The translations under genes were made by a program, and so were the position numbers. From NCBI GenBank assembly GCA_001304015.1, contig LJUY01000011.1, forward strand, positions 26,652-90,651: 64,000 nucleotides of DNA, in the 5' to 3' direction. This document shows positions 20,102 through 28,084 of this stretch, in pieces. The notes under the pieces were generated by a model. The model had not been told where the DNA came from and searched no databases. It saw only the letters and a list, made by a program, of their open reading frames with translations. The first letter of the stretch is position 1. Every line of letters begins with the position of its first letter. Source of the stretch: a candidate division Zixibacteria bacterium SM23_81. GTDB lineage: Bacteria > SM23-81.

Positions 20102-21259
20102 CTAACCCCTTCGAAAGATATGCACCGCGGTGCTGCCGCCAGTGCCACCCATGTTCTGGCTTAGACCCAGCCTGGCTCCCTCCACCTGCCGCTCTCCGGC
20201 ATCGCCGCGAAGCTGCTTCACGATCTCAATGGCCTGAGCCACGCCGGTGGCTCCCACCGGATGCCCCTTGGCTTTCAGCCCGCCGCTGGTGTTCACGGGA
20301 ATCTTGCCCCCCAATGCGGTTAGGCCGCTCTCGGCCGCCTTCCCACCTTGGCCTTTCTCCACCAAGCCCAGGGCCTCTATAACGCAGATCTCGGCGATGG
20401 TGAAACAGTCGTGTACCTCGGCCAACTGCAGATCGCTGGGGCCCACGCCGGCCATCTGGAAAGCTCTCTCCGAAGCCATGGCGGTGGCGCTCAACCAGGT
20501 CAGGTCCTTCCGCGAATGCAGGGCGATGGTATCGGTAGCCTGTCCCGAGCCGATGATCTGGACCATGGGCTTTGTGCTCATCTTCCTGGCCATCTCCACC
20601 GGGCAGAGGATAACCGCCGCCGCCCCATCGGTGATGGGGGAGCAGTCCAGAATCCTCAAAGGGTCAGCCACCAGCACGGAGTTGAGCACGGCTTCCACAG
20701 TGACCTTGAAGGGATACTGCGCCAGGGGATTCATGGAACCGTGTTGGTGATTTTTCACAGCCACCTGGGCCAGCTGCTCCCGGGTGGTTCCATAGTCGTA
20801 CATGTGCCGGTGGGCCATCATGGCATAGAGACCCGGAAAGGTGATGCCCTGGTAATCTTCATATTCCTGATCGGCGGCCGTGGACAGGGCATAGGTGGCC
20901 TCACCACCGCTCACGTCTGTCATCTTCTCCACCCCGCCTACCAATACGATGTCGCTCATTCCCGACGCCACCTCGAGAAAGCCTAGACGCAAGGCCACTC
21001 CTCCAGAGGCGCAGGCCGACTCGACCCGAGTGGCTGGGATGGAAGCTACACCTAAATAGTCGGCCATAAGAGAGCCCAGGTGCTCCTGACCCACGAAAAG
21101 CCCGCTGGTCATGCATCCTACGTACATGGATTCGATGTGATCGACACCGGCATCATCGATGGCTGCAAGGGCTGCTTCCACGAAGATATCCCGCATGGAC
21201 TTCTCCCAGAGCTCGCCCCATCTGTTCATGCCCACGCCGATGACGGCTACGTCTCTCAT
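20102..21259 (-). CDS. SCP2/SCPx-type thiolase, DUF35-dependent
   Basis: A 385-residue thiolase-fold protein of the SCPx-type group, which works with a DUF35 partner. Catalytic Cys lies in [15 protein letters not shown]; other conserved blocks are [26 protein letters not shown] (His) and [17 protein letters not shown]. It begins [16 protein letters not shown] with CGGGAGGAATCT upstream; the open frame extends 44 codons before this but that stretch is unlike the family. It differs clearly from the classical thiolase at 3.3 kb. It may cleave branched or larger 3-oxoacyl-CoAs or make acetoacetyl-CoA. Confidence 0.93.
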
Positions 21260-21402
21260 AGATTCCTCCCGGCTGAGTATTGCCTCATAGTTCTTCTCAA
21301 AAGCTTCTATGCACCTTTTTCTTTTTAGTCTTCCTCTTTGATGTCTCCTGTGGCTATCTCCTTTATCGCTCTCCTGTAACTCACTTCTCATTAGCTGTTT
21401 CC

Positions 21403-22341
21403 TTAAAGTGCCTCCTCTATGGCATTCTCTTCAATTTCTCTGGTAAGCAACTTCTCTACAACTTCTCTGATAAACAGAGCATGAACAACTTCGGCCACCT
21501 TCAAAGGCTGTTTTTCCTCCTTGTCGGCAAACCACTGCTTGCTCAACAGCCCGGCGATAAATTGGATCTGTTCCTCGGGATGACTGGCACCGCCATACAA
21601 TCTTCCCAGCTGGCTAAAAAAAACGGGGCCACCGCTGTAGCCTTTGAAGATCTCCATATCGAAGCGAAAGGTCTTGTGCTTCTCCACGGGGAAGAGAGGA
21701 TAGGAGGCGATCACGCCACCTCGTAAGATAGGAAATCCACCTTTGCCATGAACGCCGTTCTGCGATGAGTAGCCCAAACACATCAGCGCATCCCCTGGAT
21801 GAATCTCATATTTCTGAAATGTCCCTTCGTCGGCCAACAAATCCAGAGAGCTTAGTGGTATGTCAACATATCGGGGCAGCGAGACACACAGGGCGGCCAC
21901 ATCGGCATCTTTGTGTCGAATCCACAAGGGCTTGCCGTGGCGACGAATATCAATCCACCAGGGACGCTCCTCCCACGATCCATCCCATCTCTTATCTCTC
22001 AAACCGAGTAGCGCCCGGTCATTCTGCAAGCTATCCAATAGATGATGTGAGGTGACCAGCACCGCTTTCCTGGGATCTTCTTTACATGGAAGATCAAAGA
22101 CGAAGGCAGTGCCAAATAACAGCGAATCACCTGAGGTTATACCTTGCAGCTTAAAAGTGGACTCCATCAGGACTATATTCAGATCGACATACTCCTCTGC
22201 TGGGACCGTGGCATCAGCCACCGGAAACTGAGAGGGTCGCGGGCCCGTCCTCGCTGGACCTCGGGCGCAACATAGAAGGGTGAAGATAAGAAAGAGCAGA
22301 ACCAAAAATATCCAGGCGAATTTATATCGTAACTGTTCCAT
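21403..22341 (-). CDS. Membrane-anchored trypsin-like serine protease
   Basis: A 312-residue protein with an N-terminal hydrophobic segment (about residues 8-26) ending LLCCARG, either a membrane anchor or a lipobox. The body fits an S1/trypsin-like fold: FGTAFVFDL strand, catalytic His in LVTSHHLLD, Asp in [12 protein letters not shown], and Ser in [12 protein letters not shown]. It would act in the periplasm or at the outer face of the inner membrane. I chose [10 protein letters not shown] because it precedes the hydrophobic segment; ribosome-binding sequence is weak. It has no PDZ domain, so it is not a classical DegP. It lies next to the SIR2/HEPN genes, but a 377-base gap and normal base composition argue against a shared operon. 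Confidence 0.78.
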
Positions 22342-22718
22342 GTTTTCAAGACCGTTCAAAAAAGAGCTCCCGGAACCGAGGAAGCGGTAAAACTCTGCGA
22401 CTCGCTGGGAGCTGAGAGATTTAGAGCACAAGTTTGAGCGAGGGTTAAATGAATATGAAAAGAGAATGCTAATACAAGCAGAAACAAAATGGTGGGGAAA
22501 AAACAGGGCGGTTTCTTCTCAAGTGGTAATCGTATTAAAAAGTTGTTTCTGGCCATAAACATCACCTAGAGCTAAGGAATGAGGGCTGGGCACGAATCAG
22601 AATATGCACAACAACTTGTGGGAAGAGCTTATTATAATAACAAATTTTTGGGCTTTTGTCAATTGCGAAAGGGTGAAAAGAAGCGAATATTAGCAGGACA
22701 ATGGGTGAGTACTCTTTA
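22342..22718. other. Intergenic gap without a supported gene
   Basis: This 377-base gap separates the serine protease gene from the SIR2-like gene. The part nearest SIR2 is AT-rich. On the minus strand a 69-codon frame (22356-22565) begins with a signal-peptide-like stretch, but I found no family for it and do not call it. No repeats of the 47-bp type occur here. Confidence 0.5.
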
Positions 22719-23960
22719 TTATCTACCTAGCCTTTCATCTATTTCTTGCCAATGAGTCTCTTCTATCGGTTTTCGAAGAAAATGCAGGATTCTTTTTTCC
22801 TTCAGCCCGTCCCATTTCATAGCAATTGCTCTCCTAGCGGCTTGCTTAATTTCCTTCTCTGATTTTACGTCAATCACTACAATCTGGGGACCTTTAGTTC
22901 TTGGATCACAAAGCCAATCTATGATTCTTGCGTTAATACCTTTATCTCCAAAACTATATCCACTTATGACCACGCTATCGCTTTTATTCAATGATGTATG
23001 TAGTTGACAATACATATGAGTATATACGCCACTTGTATATTCTAGCATCTTATTGAACGTGCCAAGCAATATTAAATGACGGCTAGGTAAAAGCTCACGC
23101 CCTTCAGAATCCTTTATGCGGGCAATATCCGCCTTCCAAGGAATAACTATCCTGTCGTATCTCCAATCTCCATTAGGAATCCCAATTCTTCGCCAGTTTA
23201 CGGATCCATGTAGCTTAAATACACGAACTTTAATCGATTCCATAGAATACTCATTTGGATTCCAATATCTGAGTTGACTCCCTGGTTCACCTTTAGGTTT
23301 GCTGAAGCCATCTGTAAATCCCACATCTTCATTATGTAGACAGCTCTCTAATACTAAATCATGATTTAAAGTAAAGATATCAACATAGGAAATACGGTCA
23401 TTCCTGCAAGCAGCCATTATGCTGTTCAAGTGATCCAGACGACAGGGTTCCTTATTAAGCGAGTTCAAGGCTATGTCATGAATGTAATTAGTGACCTCTT
23501 CTGTATAATTCAGTAACTCTCCCTCAAAATCTCGAGGATTCCAAACACCCCGCCCAATTGTCTCCATAATCCGATTCTTGATTTCAGGCTTATTGAAGAT
23601 TTTATCAATAAGGGGTCGAACCGCAGGATTATCATAATTACCTGATAAATTGTCACGAATTTGACTAGCCATATAGAAAAGATCTTCATAATTAGGAAAT
23701 CTGCCTTTGATATAATCTTTAATTTCACCAAATAAAACATATAAATAATTTAAGTTGTGGCGAATATGGTACTCTGAATTTCGCGAATAGGCAGCTGCTT
23801 GATCTTTATCTATGAAGCGATATTCTCCATCTGAATCTCGGCATATTCCCTCACCTGAGAGTACTGTTTCAGTAATACTACCAGTTGAAGGCATCTGAGC
23901 AGGTATTGAAACTCCAGCACCAAGCAAAAAGACTATTCGCGACTTATATGTAAACTCCAT
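22719..23960 (-). CDS. SIR2-like domain protein (candidate defence effector)
   Basis: A 413-residue SIR2-superfamily protein. The NAD-binding signature FLLGAGVSIPAQMPSTG lies at residues 11-27, FTLNHD at 196-201, the probable catalytic His251 in KLHGSVNW, and ISGYSFGDKGIN at 333-344. No zinc-binding Cys quartet of deacetylating sirtuins is visible, so it matches the SIR2-like group used as NAD-consuming effectors in anti-phage systems. The start follows AAAGGATTATA. The HEPN-type gene ends 44 bases upstream in the same direction, so the two are probably one operon. Base composition is much lower in GC than the catabolic cluster, suggesting transfer. It could instead be a DNA- or RNA-linked NAD-binding enzyme of other function. 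Confidence 0.85.
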   Translation of the reverse strand: MEFTYKSRIVFLLGAGVSIPAQMPSTGSITETVLSGEGICRDSDGEYRFIDKDQAAAYSRNSEYHIRHNLNYLYVLFGEIKDYIKGRFPNYEDLFYMASQIRDNLSGNYDNPAVRPLIDKIFNKPEIKNRIMETIGRGVWNPRDFEGELLNYTEEVTNYIHDIALNSLNKEPCRLDHLNSIMAACRNDRISYVDIFTLNHDLVLESCLHNEDVGFTDGFSKPKGEPGSQLRYWNPNEYSMESIKVRVFKLHGSVNWRRIGIPNGDWRYDRIVIPWKADIARIKDSEGRELLPSRHLILLGTFNKMLEYTSGVYTHMYCQLHTSLNKSDSVVISGYSFGDKGINARIIDWLCDPRTKGPQIVVIDVKSEKEIKQAARRAIAMKWDGLKEKRILHFLRKPIEETHWQEIDERLGR

Positions 23961-24004
23961 TATAATCCTTTGGACTATATTTAAAGACCCAGAAGTTATT
24001 GCAC

Positions 24005-25099
24005 TTAAGTTTCCAAAAAACTTATACCTTTTTTATACAGTTTAACACGTTTTTTTAACAATGAAATGTCATCTGGGAGATCCAGAAATTGCTCCATTTC
24101 CTCTACACTTGAGTATTTGGGTCCCTCAAAAATGTGATAAGTTAACAATTTCTCTACATATCTTTTTAGTTGATAAACTAATGACTCAATTATTTCAACA
24201 GATTGTTCTGATTCATGTACATATTTATTTCTATAATCTTTTAAAATCCTCAGAGTCTGATTGTGATAATCACGGTTTTGAAAAAAGAAAATAGCTCGTT
24301 TTATTGCATCTTTGGAGGTTTGTGGGTTAAAAGTTAGAGATTCTAATAGACTCCAAAGTTCTAAAAATGATTTATTTAGATCAGATTCATCAAGCGCTTG
24401 AGAGTATTTCAAAATCATTCTCTGCAATTCTTGCCGATATTTGCTCTTTGAGATATTTTTCCTAATAAGCTGCTCATATTTCCGCAAGTCATCCCAATCC
24501 TTGCTAATATCTTTACACGTTGAGATTTTTTCATAATTAGGCCTATACCAGAATGTTTCAGTTGCAAGTTCACCGGTCAGATTATGCAAAGTATGAAAGG
24601 GCCCTAAAATTATCTGATTTATTCTTCCTGGCTTGCCAAAAGTCATTCTAGACAAATTCACTTGGTTATAATAGAAATTCCATATTGCTCGAAGTAGATC
24701 AATTGTATCTATTGCCTTAGAACTGGCTTCATAGACTGAGCGAGCTCTAACCTTCACTATAGCAACTGTATAATCTTTCGGAAAATCGCTATGAATAAAA
24801 CGACGTGCCTTTTTTGGGATTTCTCCTCTATTATATTTTTGAGGAATATATCGTTTAAATATAATGCTGCAATCTGAAATGCGAATCCACTTAAGCATCT
24901 CAAAGTATTTTATAGAAATATTTGTTATCAATAAATATGATTGTCTAACTTGCTTTTTAAACGCATTTTCTTTTTTGTTTATTTCTCTTAAAACAGTTTG
25001 CGCTGTAAATTTCTTCATTCTTCCCGCATGTTGAATAGCCTCTCTCACTATTCTTTCCTTTTCTATCTCTGGTAATACTTCTGAAAAGTTGACACACAA
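24005..25099 (-). CDS. HEPN (ApeA-like) domain protein (candidate RNase)
   Basis: A 364-residue protein with no signal peptide. The C-terminal part (about residues 240-325) has the pattern FLELWSLLESLT followed by LKDYRNKYVHES, where R290 and H295 form the R-x4-H motif of HEPN ribonucleases, in an arrangement like ApeA-type HEPN domains. The N-terminal 230 residues are not recognised. The listed start is TTG without a clear ribosome-binding sequence. The frame stays open and coding-like to 25180 (ADGLTERVKQLLFSGLG and onward), beginning at an ATA nine bases after AGGA, so the true N-terminus may lie about 27 codons upstream. The region is very AT-rich; one 60-base line at 24001 has only 15 G or C. 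SIR2-like gene 44 bases downstream. Confidence 0.75.
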   Translation of the reverse strand: MCVNFSEVLPEIEKERIVREAIQHAGRMKKFTAQTVLREINKKENAFKKQVRQSYLLITNISIKYFEMLKWIRISDCSIIFKRYIPQKYNRGEIPKKARRFIHSDFPKDYTVAIVKVRARSVYEASSKAIDTIDLLRAIWNFYYNQVNLSRMTFGKPGRINQIILGPFHTLHNLTGELATETFWYRPNYEKISTCKDISKDWDDLRKYEQLIRKNISKSKYRQELQRMILKYSQALDESDLNKSFLELWSLLESLTFNPQTSKDAIKRAIFFFQNRDYHNQTLRILKDYRNKYVHESEQSVEIIESLVYQLKRYVEKLLTYHIFEGPKYSSVEEMEQFLDLPDDISLLKKRVKLYKKGISFLET

Positions 25100-25303
25100 T
25101 ATTATTTGAGTAATATAATCTTCAACCCCTAATCCACTAAAAGTAGCTGCTTTACCCTTTCTGTAAGTCCGTCTGCTATTCAGTTTTTTCCTACAACTTG
25201 CGGATCATAATCTTTTTTCCATCGAGCGCACATAGTTTTTTTCCATCGAAATTAAATTTTGATATCATAGATTCTACTTTTCATTATTCCAAATCCCTTC
25301 CTC

Positions 25304-25386
25304 TCACCCCACCAAAACCCACCCGATCAGGAGCAAGATCAGCACAATTTCCGCCACCACGTTAAACCTCGCTCGCTGATGATCGG
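25304..25386 (-). pseudogene. Remnant of a TauE/SafE permease 3' end
   Basis: Positions 25304-25386 align with the last ~85 bases of the intact TauE/SafE gene (26339-26425), stop codon included. By hand about three quarters of positions match, with one codon missing and a single-base deletion near 25372. The remnant reads RFNVVAEIVLILLLIG, then WVLVG and stop, against KFNLVVGIVLVLIALRIG, then WGLVG. Similarity stops abruptly near 25386. It lies downstream of the HNH gene, which thus sits between two copies of the same gene end. Confidence 0.75.
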
Positions 25387-25429
25387 GTTATTTTTAAATC
25401 GAATCAGCAATCTTATTGTGATCTGGTAT

Positions 25430-26293
25430 CTACAGATCTTTTTCTTTTGGAATTTTCAAATTATGATCAAGTTTCCTAACTTCCCACGGGGATTGTTTCT
25501 GATAATTTCCAGCTTTTAGCTCTTCCCAAAACTTCTTATGTGCAATACGAAGAACTTTCTGCACATAAAATTGTGCCCTCTTTGATTTTCGTGACCAGTC
25601 TATTTTATTCCATTCTTCCTCGCTTAACATACAACGGTCAAAAAGTCTATGATGAGTGGGACAAAGTAGAAGAACATTACCCATACCTTTCCCTCCCCTT
25701 AAACGAGAAGGAATAATATGACAAACATCTATAGCGCGGTTTTCGCCACAAATCTCACAAGGAATATTTTGCTTCAGCACAGCCTCATTTGTAAGCTTAT
25801 GAAATGTTGCTCTTACGTAAGTTCCTTTTTGGAAAGGACGATTTTCAGACGGTTTAAGAAAGGTCTCCCTAAAAATTCTAAATACCTCCTCCTCTAATAA
25901 ATGTATCAAAAGCAGGCTGGAACCGCCGCGATGTTCTATGGCTTTTTTCTCAAAACTACGAAATATTTTTCCCAACTCATCAAGCATAACTTGAAACTCT
26001 TCATTTGTAAGGCCAGGAGGCCTAATCTCATTTTCCTCGCTGGGCATCGGTATCCATGAGCTTATAGGATTATATTCCTCTTTTTCATCATAGCGAACCA
26101 TGCTTGTTCCATCGAGAGGAACACCATACTTCTTCAAAATCCCTGGCTCGGTTAAAAAAGTTTGAACCGCTTGAACTACTTCGTTTCTTAATCGAATGAA
26201 TGCATTCGGCTCAGCTCTGTACGTTTGATATTCATTGAAAATACGGTGAATATGATCTGTGACTCTAATACGAGGTTTTCGAATTTCATCCAT
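25430..26293 (-). CDS. HNH endonuclease-domain protein
   Basis: A 287-residue protein with a C-terminal HNH nuclease domain: zinc pair CEIC (residues 179-182), the DVCHIIPSR segment with the first His192, GMGNVLLLCPTHHRLFD with Asn206 and the second zinc/His set (211-215). The N-terminal 170 residues are helical and not recognised; they probably give target specificity. The start MDEIRKPRI follows AGGAGGTTTTC. It is lower in GC than the neighbouring permease gene. The intact permease ends 45 bases upstream and a diverged copy of that permease's end lies 45 bases downstream, suggesting acquisition at this site. Role may be restriction of invading DNA or mobility of the segment itself. Confidence 0.88.
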   Translation of the reverse strand: MDEIRKPRIRVTDHIHRIFNEYQTYRAEPNAFIRLRNEVVQAVQTFLTEPGILKKYGVPLDGTSMVRYDEKEEYNPISSWIPMPSEENEIRPPGLTNEEFQVMLDELGKIFRSFEKKAIEHRGGSSLLLIHLLEEEVFRIFRETFLKPSENRPFQKGTYVRATFHKLTNEAVLKQNIPCEICGENRAIDVCHIIPSRLRGGKGMGNVLLLCPTHHRLFDRCMLSEEEWNKIDWSRKSKRAQFYVQKVLRIAHKKFWEELKAGNYQKQSPWEVRKLDHNLKIPKEKDL

Positions 26294-26338
26294 GAAAACC
26301 TCCTATGAAAAAAAAGAAACTCGCATGTTTTCCCCCCC

Positions 26339-27097
26339 TCACCCCACCAACCCCCACCCGATCCTCAGCGCAATGAGGACTAGGACGATTCCCACCACCA
26401 AATTAAACTTACGCTCGCCGATGGTCATGTGCGTCCTGAAGCCAACGAGCAAGCCGATGATCACCCCAGGGCTGGCCAGAACGATTAACCTGACCACCTC
26501 TACATTCCACATCCCTACGGCGCCGTAGACGAACAGCCTCATGGCCCCGCCGATGAACAAAACGGCCACCATCACTTGGCGAAAGCGCGTCTTGTCCATC
26601 AAGGGGCGGGTGACGGCTACCACGAAGGGGCCACTGATGCCCACCAGGCCTCCGGTGAATCCCCCTATCACGCCACCGGCCCAGGGCTTGAAGAATCTAC
26701 TCTTAAAAAATCTGGGCGGCAGAGGAAGATCATAGAGAATGAAATTTGCCCCGAAAAATAGAACGAACAGACCAATCAATCCCAGAACGAGCTGCGCGGG
26801 CGCGTAGCCAGCCAAGGAAGAACCCACCATGGTTCCCAGAAGCATAAAGCCAGACATGGTCAGGATGAAGCGCCAATCCTCTTTCTCATACCTGATGGCC
26901 AGGAGCATCCCCAACCCCACCAGCAGATCGATGAAGGCTGAGGCGACCAGTGAAATCCTGGGACCCAGTAGTAGCCCCACGGCAGGCACGAACACCATAG
27001 CTGGACCGAAACCCGTCAAGCCTTTCAGAAAGAAGGCTGTCATACAGATGGCCCATATCAGCAGAAGCGTCTCAATCGGGTATCCCAGGATTTCCAG
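26339..27097 (-). CDS. TauE/SafE-family membrane permease, probable CTG start
   Basis: A sulfite-exporter/anion-permease-like integral membrane protein of about 252 residues with seven to eight transmembrane segments. Family features are FFLKGLTGFGPAMV in the first half and FTGGLVGISGPFVV in the second. No ATG or GTG lies at the expected N-terminus; an internal ATG at 27043 would remove most of the first membrane segment. A CTG at 27097 lies five bases after AGGAGG and four codons after an in-frame TAG, giving a normal-length N-terminus MEILGYPIETLLLIWAIC. Its 3' end is duplicated in diverged form beyond the HNH gene. Substrate unknown. Confidence 0.87.
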   Translation of the reverse strand: MEILGYPIETLLLIWAICMTAFFLKGLTGFGPAMVFVPAVGLLLGPRISLVASAFIDLLVGLGMLLAIRYEKEDWRFILTMSGFMLLGTMVGSSLAGYAPAQLVLGLIGLFVLFFGANFILYDLPLPPRFFKSRFFKPWAGGVIGGFTGGLVGISGPFVVAVTRPLMDKTRFRQVMVAVLFIGGAMRLFVYGAVGMWNVEVVRLIVLASPGVIIGLLVGFRTHMTIGERKFNLVVGIVLVLIALRIGWGLVG

Positions 27098-27138
27098 ATA
27101 AACCTCCTAGGGTTTAAAACGGTTGATCTCGAAAATCA

Positions 27139-27185
27139 TTTGGCGGTTTCGAAGCTCGTAACGAGACTCGAGATTCGTGATTCGA
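27139..27185 (+). repeat. 47-bp dispersed repeat, copy A
   Basis: This 47-base block, beginning TTTGGCGGTTTCGAAGCTCG, is identical to the reverse complement of 49111-49157. It is followed by GCTACTGCTATTTCCATTGC-type words and, at about 27247-27300, by inverted ATTCACGATCCACGATTCACG-type words, so the whole gap 27130-27305 is one composite element. It lies between the TauE-like and HAD genes. No ORF or transposase accompanies it. Confidence 0.9.
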
Positions 27186-27365
27186 AAAAACCTGCCAACT
27201 GCTACTGCTATTTCCATTGCTATTGCCGATTTCCTCTGTATTTCTCACGAGTCTCGAATCTCGATTCACGATCCACGATTCACGATCAAAGGTTTTTCAA
27301 GGATCAATCGAGCTTCTTGAATAATCCGGGCTAAAAACGGTTGATAACGAGAAAAGCACAAGCTA

Positions 27366-27971
27366 CTATAGCAGTCCTCTGGCTTGCAAAATCCCCTTCA
27401 GTTCAGGGGCACCGGTATAGGGAATCCCAAATATGCCCAGTTTGCAGGCGGCTTTTACATATTCCGGGATGTCGTCGACATAGATAATCTGAGTTGGATC
27501 TGTAGAAAGGGATATGGCCCGCTGGTAAATCCTCCTATCCGGCTTACAGTGACCCACTTCACAGGATAATATCAGGCTGTCGAAAAGGGGAAGCACATCA
27601 TAGCGCTTTTTTACGTGTTCCACATGCCAGACATTTGTATTGGATAAAAGCAATAACCGCGATCTGCCCCTTTTCCTTAGCGCCTTTATGAGGTCGACGA
27701 CCGGCCTGTTCTGGGTAAATATATCCGACCACATTTTCTTAAACTGATCCACGTCCAGCTTCACTTTTAGCGCTGCTGAACATCGTGCCGCGAAGGTCTC
27801 CGGCGAGATCTCTCCTTTATCAAACTCGTACTCCAGGCCCTCTAAAAATATTTTCCGATAGGCCAACTCCACACCAATATGATGCCTTCTCCCCACCTTC
27901 CGACAAAAAATGCGGTGATCGCAGAAAAGGACGACGTTTCCCAGATCAAAAATAACCGTCGTGTCTTTCAT
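27366..27971 (-). CDS. HAD-superfamily hydrolase
   Basis: A 201-residue cytoplasmic phosphatase-like protein. HAD motifs are visible in order: nucleophile Asp in VIFDLGNVV near residue 8, motif II LLLLSNTN, motif III Lys in HCKPDRRIYQRAI and motif IV IIYVDDIPEYV. The FDLGNV form is typical of YihX and related subfamily I members, which act on sugar or nucleotide monophosphates. The start MKDTTVIFDLGN was chosen because it begins just before motif I, although its ribosome-binding sequence is weak; longer in-frame ATGs exist to 28046. It is flanked by the SPFH gene upstream and the composite repeat downstream. Substrate cannot be told. Confidence 0.87.
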   Translation of the reverse strand: MKDTTVIFDLGNVVLFCDHRIFCRKVGRRHHIGVELAYRKIFLEGLEYEFDKGEISPETFAARCSAALKVKLDVDQFKKMWSDIFTQNRPVVDLIKALRKRGRSRLLLLSNTNVWHVEHVKKRYDVLPLFDSLILSCEVGHCKPDRRIYQRAISLSTDPTQIIYVDDIPEYVKAACKLGIFGIPYTGAPELKGILQARGLL

Positions 27972-28084
27972 AGGATTTTGACGTATTTGACCCACATCCG
28001 CAAGTAACCCCCTCATGGGCTCAACTCGGATTTGCGCAAAGGACAATGATGAGCTTGAGGACGATGAGTCAGATTACCCATCCC

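Follow-up and report, generated by a model that had tools for sequence, protein, structure and literature searches.

Three co-directional genes lie close together in an AT-rich stretch (positions 22,719 to 26,293) of contig LJUY01000011.1 of the candidate division Zixibacteria bacterium SM23_81, and encode a SIR2-like protein, a HEPN-like protein and an HNH nuclease. Do these genes form one defence system, or do they merely share a place? The first-pass annotation of the 64,000-nucleotide piece of DNA analysed here, hereafter the window, had put them together as an undescribed defence cassette. That proposal is not borne out, as the SIR2 and HEPN genes show neither conserved adjacency nor co-occurrence across genomes and the HNH gene stands apart from both. 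In our judgement the stretch is quite probably not one system but a small cluster, beside the transporter gene tauE, of single-gene effectors of defence type that were each acquired on their own.

The evidence that carries this answer is a cross-genome adjacency check, which was run as set beforehand and went against the cassette. A two-sequence alignment of the SIR2 protein, searched against 84,980 species genomes, returned 80 loci; SIR2 loci were chosen by two exact peptide patterns, and 21 of them (L014-L034) make up a near group whose SIR2 proteins are 27-44% identical to that of the window, most across about 400 residues. None of these 21 loci carries an adjacent HEPN relative, and 19 of them extend 1.5 kb or more upstream, where the HEPN gene lies in the window. 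Genome-wide, a HEPN relative is present in none of the 21 genomes that bear a SIR2 orthologue, nor is SIR2 found near any of ten HEPN loci. Both profiles were detected in the window itself, which served as the positive control of the scan; the test spans a HEPN family of 11 members and mostly draft genomes. Because adjacency is absent from 21 SIR2 and ten HEPN loci, the cassette is unsupported, and SIR2 plus HEPN as one system was rejected on the adjacency and co-occurrence counts. A phrase search of a library of papers likewise found no SIR2-HEPN system.

What surrounds the SIR2 orthologues instead is varied. All 21 near-group loci come from metagenome-assembled genomes (Planctomycetota, Nitrospirae, Chloroflexi, Latescibacterota, Ignavibacteria and others), and their flanks, up to 6 kb, hold unrelated genes, among them AlkZ, trypsin-TPR, glycosyltransferase, integrase, Fic, beta-lactamase and a proteasome subunit. 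Genes of about 370-420 codons stand beside many of the orthologues and were considered as a conserved partner; this candidate was ruled out, since they fall into unrelated Pfam families (the first five just named and AcrB). In one locus (L015, 2965-9288) the SIR2 orthologue immediately precedes BREX brxA and a brxC-like gene. Homologues on plasmids stand alone or beside restriction-modification (R-M), HerA or Piwi genes.

The SIR2 assignment itself was confirmed. The protein exceeds the cut-off for SIR2_2 (PF13289; 36.2 bits against 24.5), PADLOC SIR2 models match it with E down to 5.7e-21, and it carries both the GAG-V-S signature (as GAGVS) and the His251 that the first-pass annotation had read from its sequence. 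His251 is invariant in 20 aligned members, and Asn199 is present in the window protein and most of the others. Four orthologues (L024, L026, L029 and L033) have Cys in place of this Asn, reading STLCHD where others have FTLNHD, and their activity may be altered. An AlphaFold2 model built on the 20-sequence alignment has a predicted local distance difference test score (pLDDT) of 86.8, and its best matches in the PDB are the SIR2 chains of SIR2-HerA/Nezha (Foldseek E to 1.5e-11). The window protein is a stand-alone sirtuin-fold protein of the NADase type, with family, fold and catalytic Asn and His all in evidence and no conserved partner around its orthologues; NAD hydrolysis, a trigger and a role in defence are predicted from its family.

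The HEPN protein is harder to place, and it matches no solved structure by sequence. We compared its model with 803 chains by VIA-align, and four of the five top rows are HEPN proteins, aligned over residues 249-365: 4nqf (Z 7.8), 2hsb (6.7), 7bxo (6.5) and 8pe3 (5.4). Of these, 7bxo is listed as a toxin-antitoxin and 8pe3 as Csm6', both of which are HEPN proteins. The R-x4-H motif reported by the first-pass annotation as R290/H295, counted from a TTG at 25099, is R325-N-K-Y-V-H330 in the longer protein described below. All 11 members of the family share, without exception, its R325, N326, V329 and H330 (R-N-x-x-V-H) and a glutamate, E288. In the model, which is of low confidence, the motif closes the penultimate helix (312-329), ahead of a last helix at 339-359, and E288 sits in a helix at 276-291. 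The HEPN superfamily is characterised by an Rx4-6H motif that ends the penultimate helix, a polar residue after the arginine and an acidic residue in helix 2 (PMC3710099). A HEPN fold has four helices, the third of which ends with the motif. Because of the invariant motif and glutamate, the HEPN structures among the top rows and this placement in the helices, the window protein is probably a HEPN protein. The motif that had been claimed stands, and in the low-confidence model R-x4-H ends the penultimate helix of a bundle that best matches HEPN domains and does not fall outside such a fold. RNase activity, sensing and dimerisation are predicted by analogy. The protein had also been called ApeA-like: HEPN_Apea (PF18739) is weakly similar to its HEPN part, at 18.3-18.6 bits (18.6 at best) against a cut-off of 24.4, and matches one of the 11 members at all, so that the candidate ApeA was rejected.

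Relatives of the HEPN protein are few, and the settings in which they recur are of interest in their own right. The family comprises the window copy and ten relatives. One, from Shewanella (26.5% identity over 99% of the length), was found among 72,556 plasmids and has no SIR2 beside it. In two genomes of the phylum Bacteroidota (L096, L097) the HEPN gene comes immediately after hsdR and a fused hsdMS and points the same way. These type I R-M genes followed by HEPN are at 6253-12027 of L096 and 404-6129 of L097; the fused specificity parts appear different between the two, while the HEPN proteins are nearly identical. A search with a four-sequence alignment added seven viral or prophage contigs in which the gene stands alone, and in several of them integrases, repressors, DNA methyltransferases or phage structural genes lie nearby. 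In one such contig the gene directly upstream of HEPN (L098, 3742-4746) encodes, towards its end, RHGIAHG, which could be a further R-x4-H motif. The two Bacteroidota-phylum genomes excepted, HEPN relatives were absent from 98 related genomes and from samples of 348, 369 and 345 genomes from other groups, and an earlier profile scan of genome contigs with a two-sequence alignment found none. None of the 11 members passes any Pfam cut-off, PHROGs and PADLOC give single weak matches, and the two members checked in NCBIfam have no match there. Nor did the family match anything in a phage collection, for which it was not checked whether Tha-bearing phages are included. The family is rare, its members are about 410 residues long, and no model in Pfam, NCBIfam, PHROGs or PADLOC names it.

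Alignment with these relatives also changes the reading of the gene in the window. The start had been placed at the TTG at 25099, which gives 364 residues, and this does not hold. Since full-length relatives have about 410-415 residues and their N-termini (MKVKWKKNxxLKPQ or MxxWxKEYxPEL) match the window sequence further upstream, the true start lies near 25233. Reading from the ATG there gives MCARWKKDYDPQVVGKN and then TGA, and the family sequence resumes in the neighbouring frame with LNSRRTYRKGKAATFSGL. Of the window's 2530 six-frame fragments, MCARWKKDYDPQVVGKN scored best against a profile of the other ten N-termini, at E 0.23 over the whole window. A stop in the ATG frame with family sequence in the next indicates a one-base break at the run of A at 25184-25189. 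The heptamer A AAA AAC formed by this run has the phase required for slippage and is followed at once by the in-frame TGA, and the -1 frame carries the HEPN family sequence on. All ten relatives have unbroken frames without the heptamer arrangement. A true mutation or an error of assembly may lie behind the break; a site of -1 slippage is less likely. With the frame interrupted after codon 17, the window gene is either inactive or poorly expressed, or else the interruption is an artefact of sequencing, and this copy may be non-functional.

Transcription of the three genes, whose positions are collected in the table, runs from HNH through HEPN to SIR2, and the SIR2, HEPN and HNH reading frames of 413, 364 (from TTG) and 287 residues are as first described, as is the gap of 44 nucleotides between HEPN and SIR2. 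The AT-richness is equally real: the guanine-plus-cytosine (GC) fraction is 0.382 in the SIR2 gene, 0.325 in HEPN and 0.384 in HNH, against a window mean of 0.515 (standard deviation 0.051), and it shifts sharply relative to the surroundings. A Pfam scan of the locus covered seven genes (20102-28046), of which the further flanks are ordinary, with a HAD hydrolase on the upstream side and a thiolase on the downstream side. The trypsin-like neighbour of SIR2 has a hydrophobic N-terminus. A trypsin-TPR gene lies immediately upstream of the SIR2 orthologue in L017, too, and the likeness to the window is probably coincidence.

Features of the AT-rich stretch and its immediate flanks (positions in the window)
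Feature	Position	Strand	Basis
Trypsin-like protein, downstream flank, GC 0.50	21403..22431	-	PF13365 E 2.5e-5; PADLOC candidate PDC-S45 E 4.8e-15
SIR2-like gene, 413 residues, stand-alone NADase-type sirtuin	22719..23960	-	PF13289; PADLOC SIR2 models; AlphaFold2 model; orthologues L014-L034
Probable HEPN-family gene, open frame of 399 codons	24005..25204	-	11-member family alignment; HEPN structures as top VIA rows
First 17 codons of the HEPN gene and stop, other frame (MCARWKKDYDPQVVGKN, then stop)	25180..25233	-	family N-terminus match; profile scan
A AAA AAC run before TGA, site of the one-base frame break	25183..25189	-	sequence; ten relatives unbroken
Decayed duplicate of the tauE 3' end, between HNH and HEPN	25300..25410	-	69% over 118 aligned columns
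HNH nuclease gene, 287 residues, HNH in residues 179-223	25430..26293	-	PF13391
TauE/SafE transporter gene, upstream flank; AT-rich stretch begins at its 3' end	26339..27043	-	PF01925 82.3 bits

The third gene had been described as encoding an HNH nuclease with an unrecognised N-terminus, and rightly so: the protein scores 37.6 bits against HNH_2 (PF13391; cut-off 21) and its N-terminus has no assignment. Relatives are absent from the viral contigs, and the plasmids hold one domain-level match, annotated Shedu. The gene lies 330 nucleotides from the HEPN gene counted from the TTG, or about 200 from the corrected start, and the repeat of the tauE 3' end in this interval has an alignment score of 31, against a maximum of 12 in 60 shuffles. 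The true tauE ends just upstream of HNH. Since the decayed tauE end lies between HNH and HEPN, we regard HNH as a likely separate insertion, in an arrangement suggestive of one insertion after another at the 3' end of tauE. The HNH gene is bracketed by the remnant and by the tauE end at 26335-26450, a sign of insertion with no integrase visible in the AT-rich stretch. An empty-site comparison within the phylum did not find tauE in three relatives.

A defence role is plausible for each of the three genes, and each would act alone. On a phage cue SIR2 would hydrolyse NAD+ and halt growth, in the manner of DSR2 or of the SIR2 in SIR2-HerA. In the HEPN protein the N-terminal half, probably a sensor, would perceive a cue, and the C-terminal domain would then dimerise and cleave RNA as abortive infection, guarding prophage hosts or R-M systems. 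HNH, bracketed by tauE ends, would cut DNA as a separate nuclease. Several points weigh against this account. The HEPN model is poor, with a pLDDT of 59.3 that drops below 50 around the motif, and a Foldseek search with it returned nothing at E<=0.001. A VIA Z of 7.8 lies within the range that helical bundles reach by chance. The defence settings of the SIR2 relatives are limited to the single BREX case and to the homologues on plasmids that adjoin R-M, HerA or Piwi genes, and the 44-nucleotide gap and common AT-richness would permit co-transcription of HEPN and SIR2 in the source genome.

That last point leads to the alternative that SIR2 and HEPN are one defence operon of two genes, with sensing and action divided between the products or with action by both, through NAD depletion and RNA cleavage. 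Co-directional, closely spaced and both AT-rich, the two genes encode proteins that are each known abortive-infection effectors; however, the pair recurs in none of the loci or genomes surveyed, the literature search found no such pair, and the HEPN frame is broken, so that we hold an operon to be very unlikely and close to refuted. A different doubt is whether the stretch belongs to the source genome at all. The assembly is a draft of 99 contigs with 4.05% contamination, the GC change is sharp and a close relative for comparison is lacking, as would be expected of an assembly chimera or contaminant, but ordinary flanks lie on both sides of the same contig and the tauE-end remnant ties the stretch to its locus; a chimera or contaminant is highly improbable.

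The broken frame invites two further readings, both of which concern the HEPN gene. It could be a decaying pseudogene, a passenger of an old mobile element, with SIR2 and perhaps HNH alone being functional, as the break that no relative shares and the decay visible in the neighbouring tauE-end remnant would suggest. Yet its other 399 codons are open, with the catalytic and family-invariant residues kept, and since the break lies in a homopolymer and the genome is a draft of 99 contigs, it could have arisen in assembly; we treat decay as a tentative possibility, on the unlikely side. Alternatively, -1 ribosomal slippage at A AAA AAC could produce the full-length RNase at a low or regulated level. 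The heptamer, correctly phased, abuts the stop and the -1 frame joins the family sequence exactly, but the relatives found do without the arrangement and A-runs break frames by chance, and we give slippage very little credence. The accretion of separate effectors beside tauE remains our preferred explanation, and with it a tempting two-gene system is struck from the list of candidates. What is gained is the delineation of a compact, unnamed HEPN family that recurs where single-gene anti-phage proteins sit, namely viral and prophage contigs, R-M operons and a plasmid. The remaining interest is this family outside the window, where viral and prophage members with unbroken frames are testable for phage defence.

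The window SIR2 has the SIR2 fold, the catalytic Asn and His and the GAG motif in common with SIR2-HerA (Nezha), DSR2, ThsA and the SIR2 of short pAgo systems. SIR2-HerA is closest in fold, yet identity in the best structural matches is 15-19%. Whereas SIR2-HerA, short pAgo-SIR2 and Thoeris have a HerA, Piwi or TIR partner, the window SIR2 clade is stand-alone, and Pfam detected neither HerA nor Piwi nor TIR in the seven genes of the locus or in the scanned neighbours of the orthologues. HNH_2 nucleases include phosphorothioate-DNA restriction enzymes (NF045808), with which the window HNH has its motif in common, but at 24.5 bits it is far under their cut-off of 180 and its N-terminus is unrecognised. 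HEPN RNases linked to R-M systems, PrrC/RloC and others, form at least 16 clades (PMC3710099), and the window family shares this linkage in two genomes, where it follows type I R-M genes directly; the window locus itself has no R-M genes beside HEPN. In PrrC/RloC an ABC-ATPase is fused to HEPN, whereas none of the 11 members of the window family has an ABC-ATPase family. An analogue is Tha of Staphylococcus prophages, likewise a prophage-encoded single protein with an unassigned N-terminus and a C-terminal HEPN domain. Tha is tail-activated and has the HEPN motif R-N-x3-H (PMC11087260), in 301 residues as against about 410. We see an even chance that the window family is an undescribed group of abortive-infection RNases that stand alone, are linked to prophages and R-M genes and have an N-terminal sensor domain of their own, analogous to Tha with no detectable sequence relationship to it.

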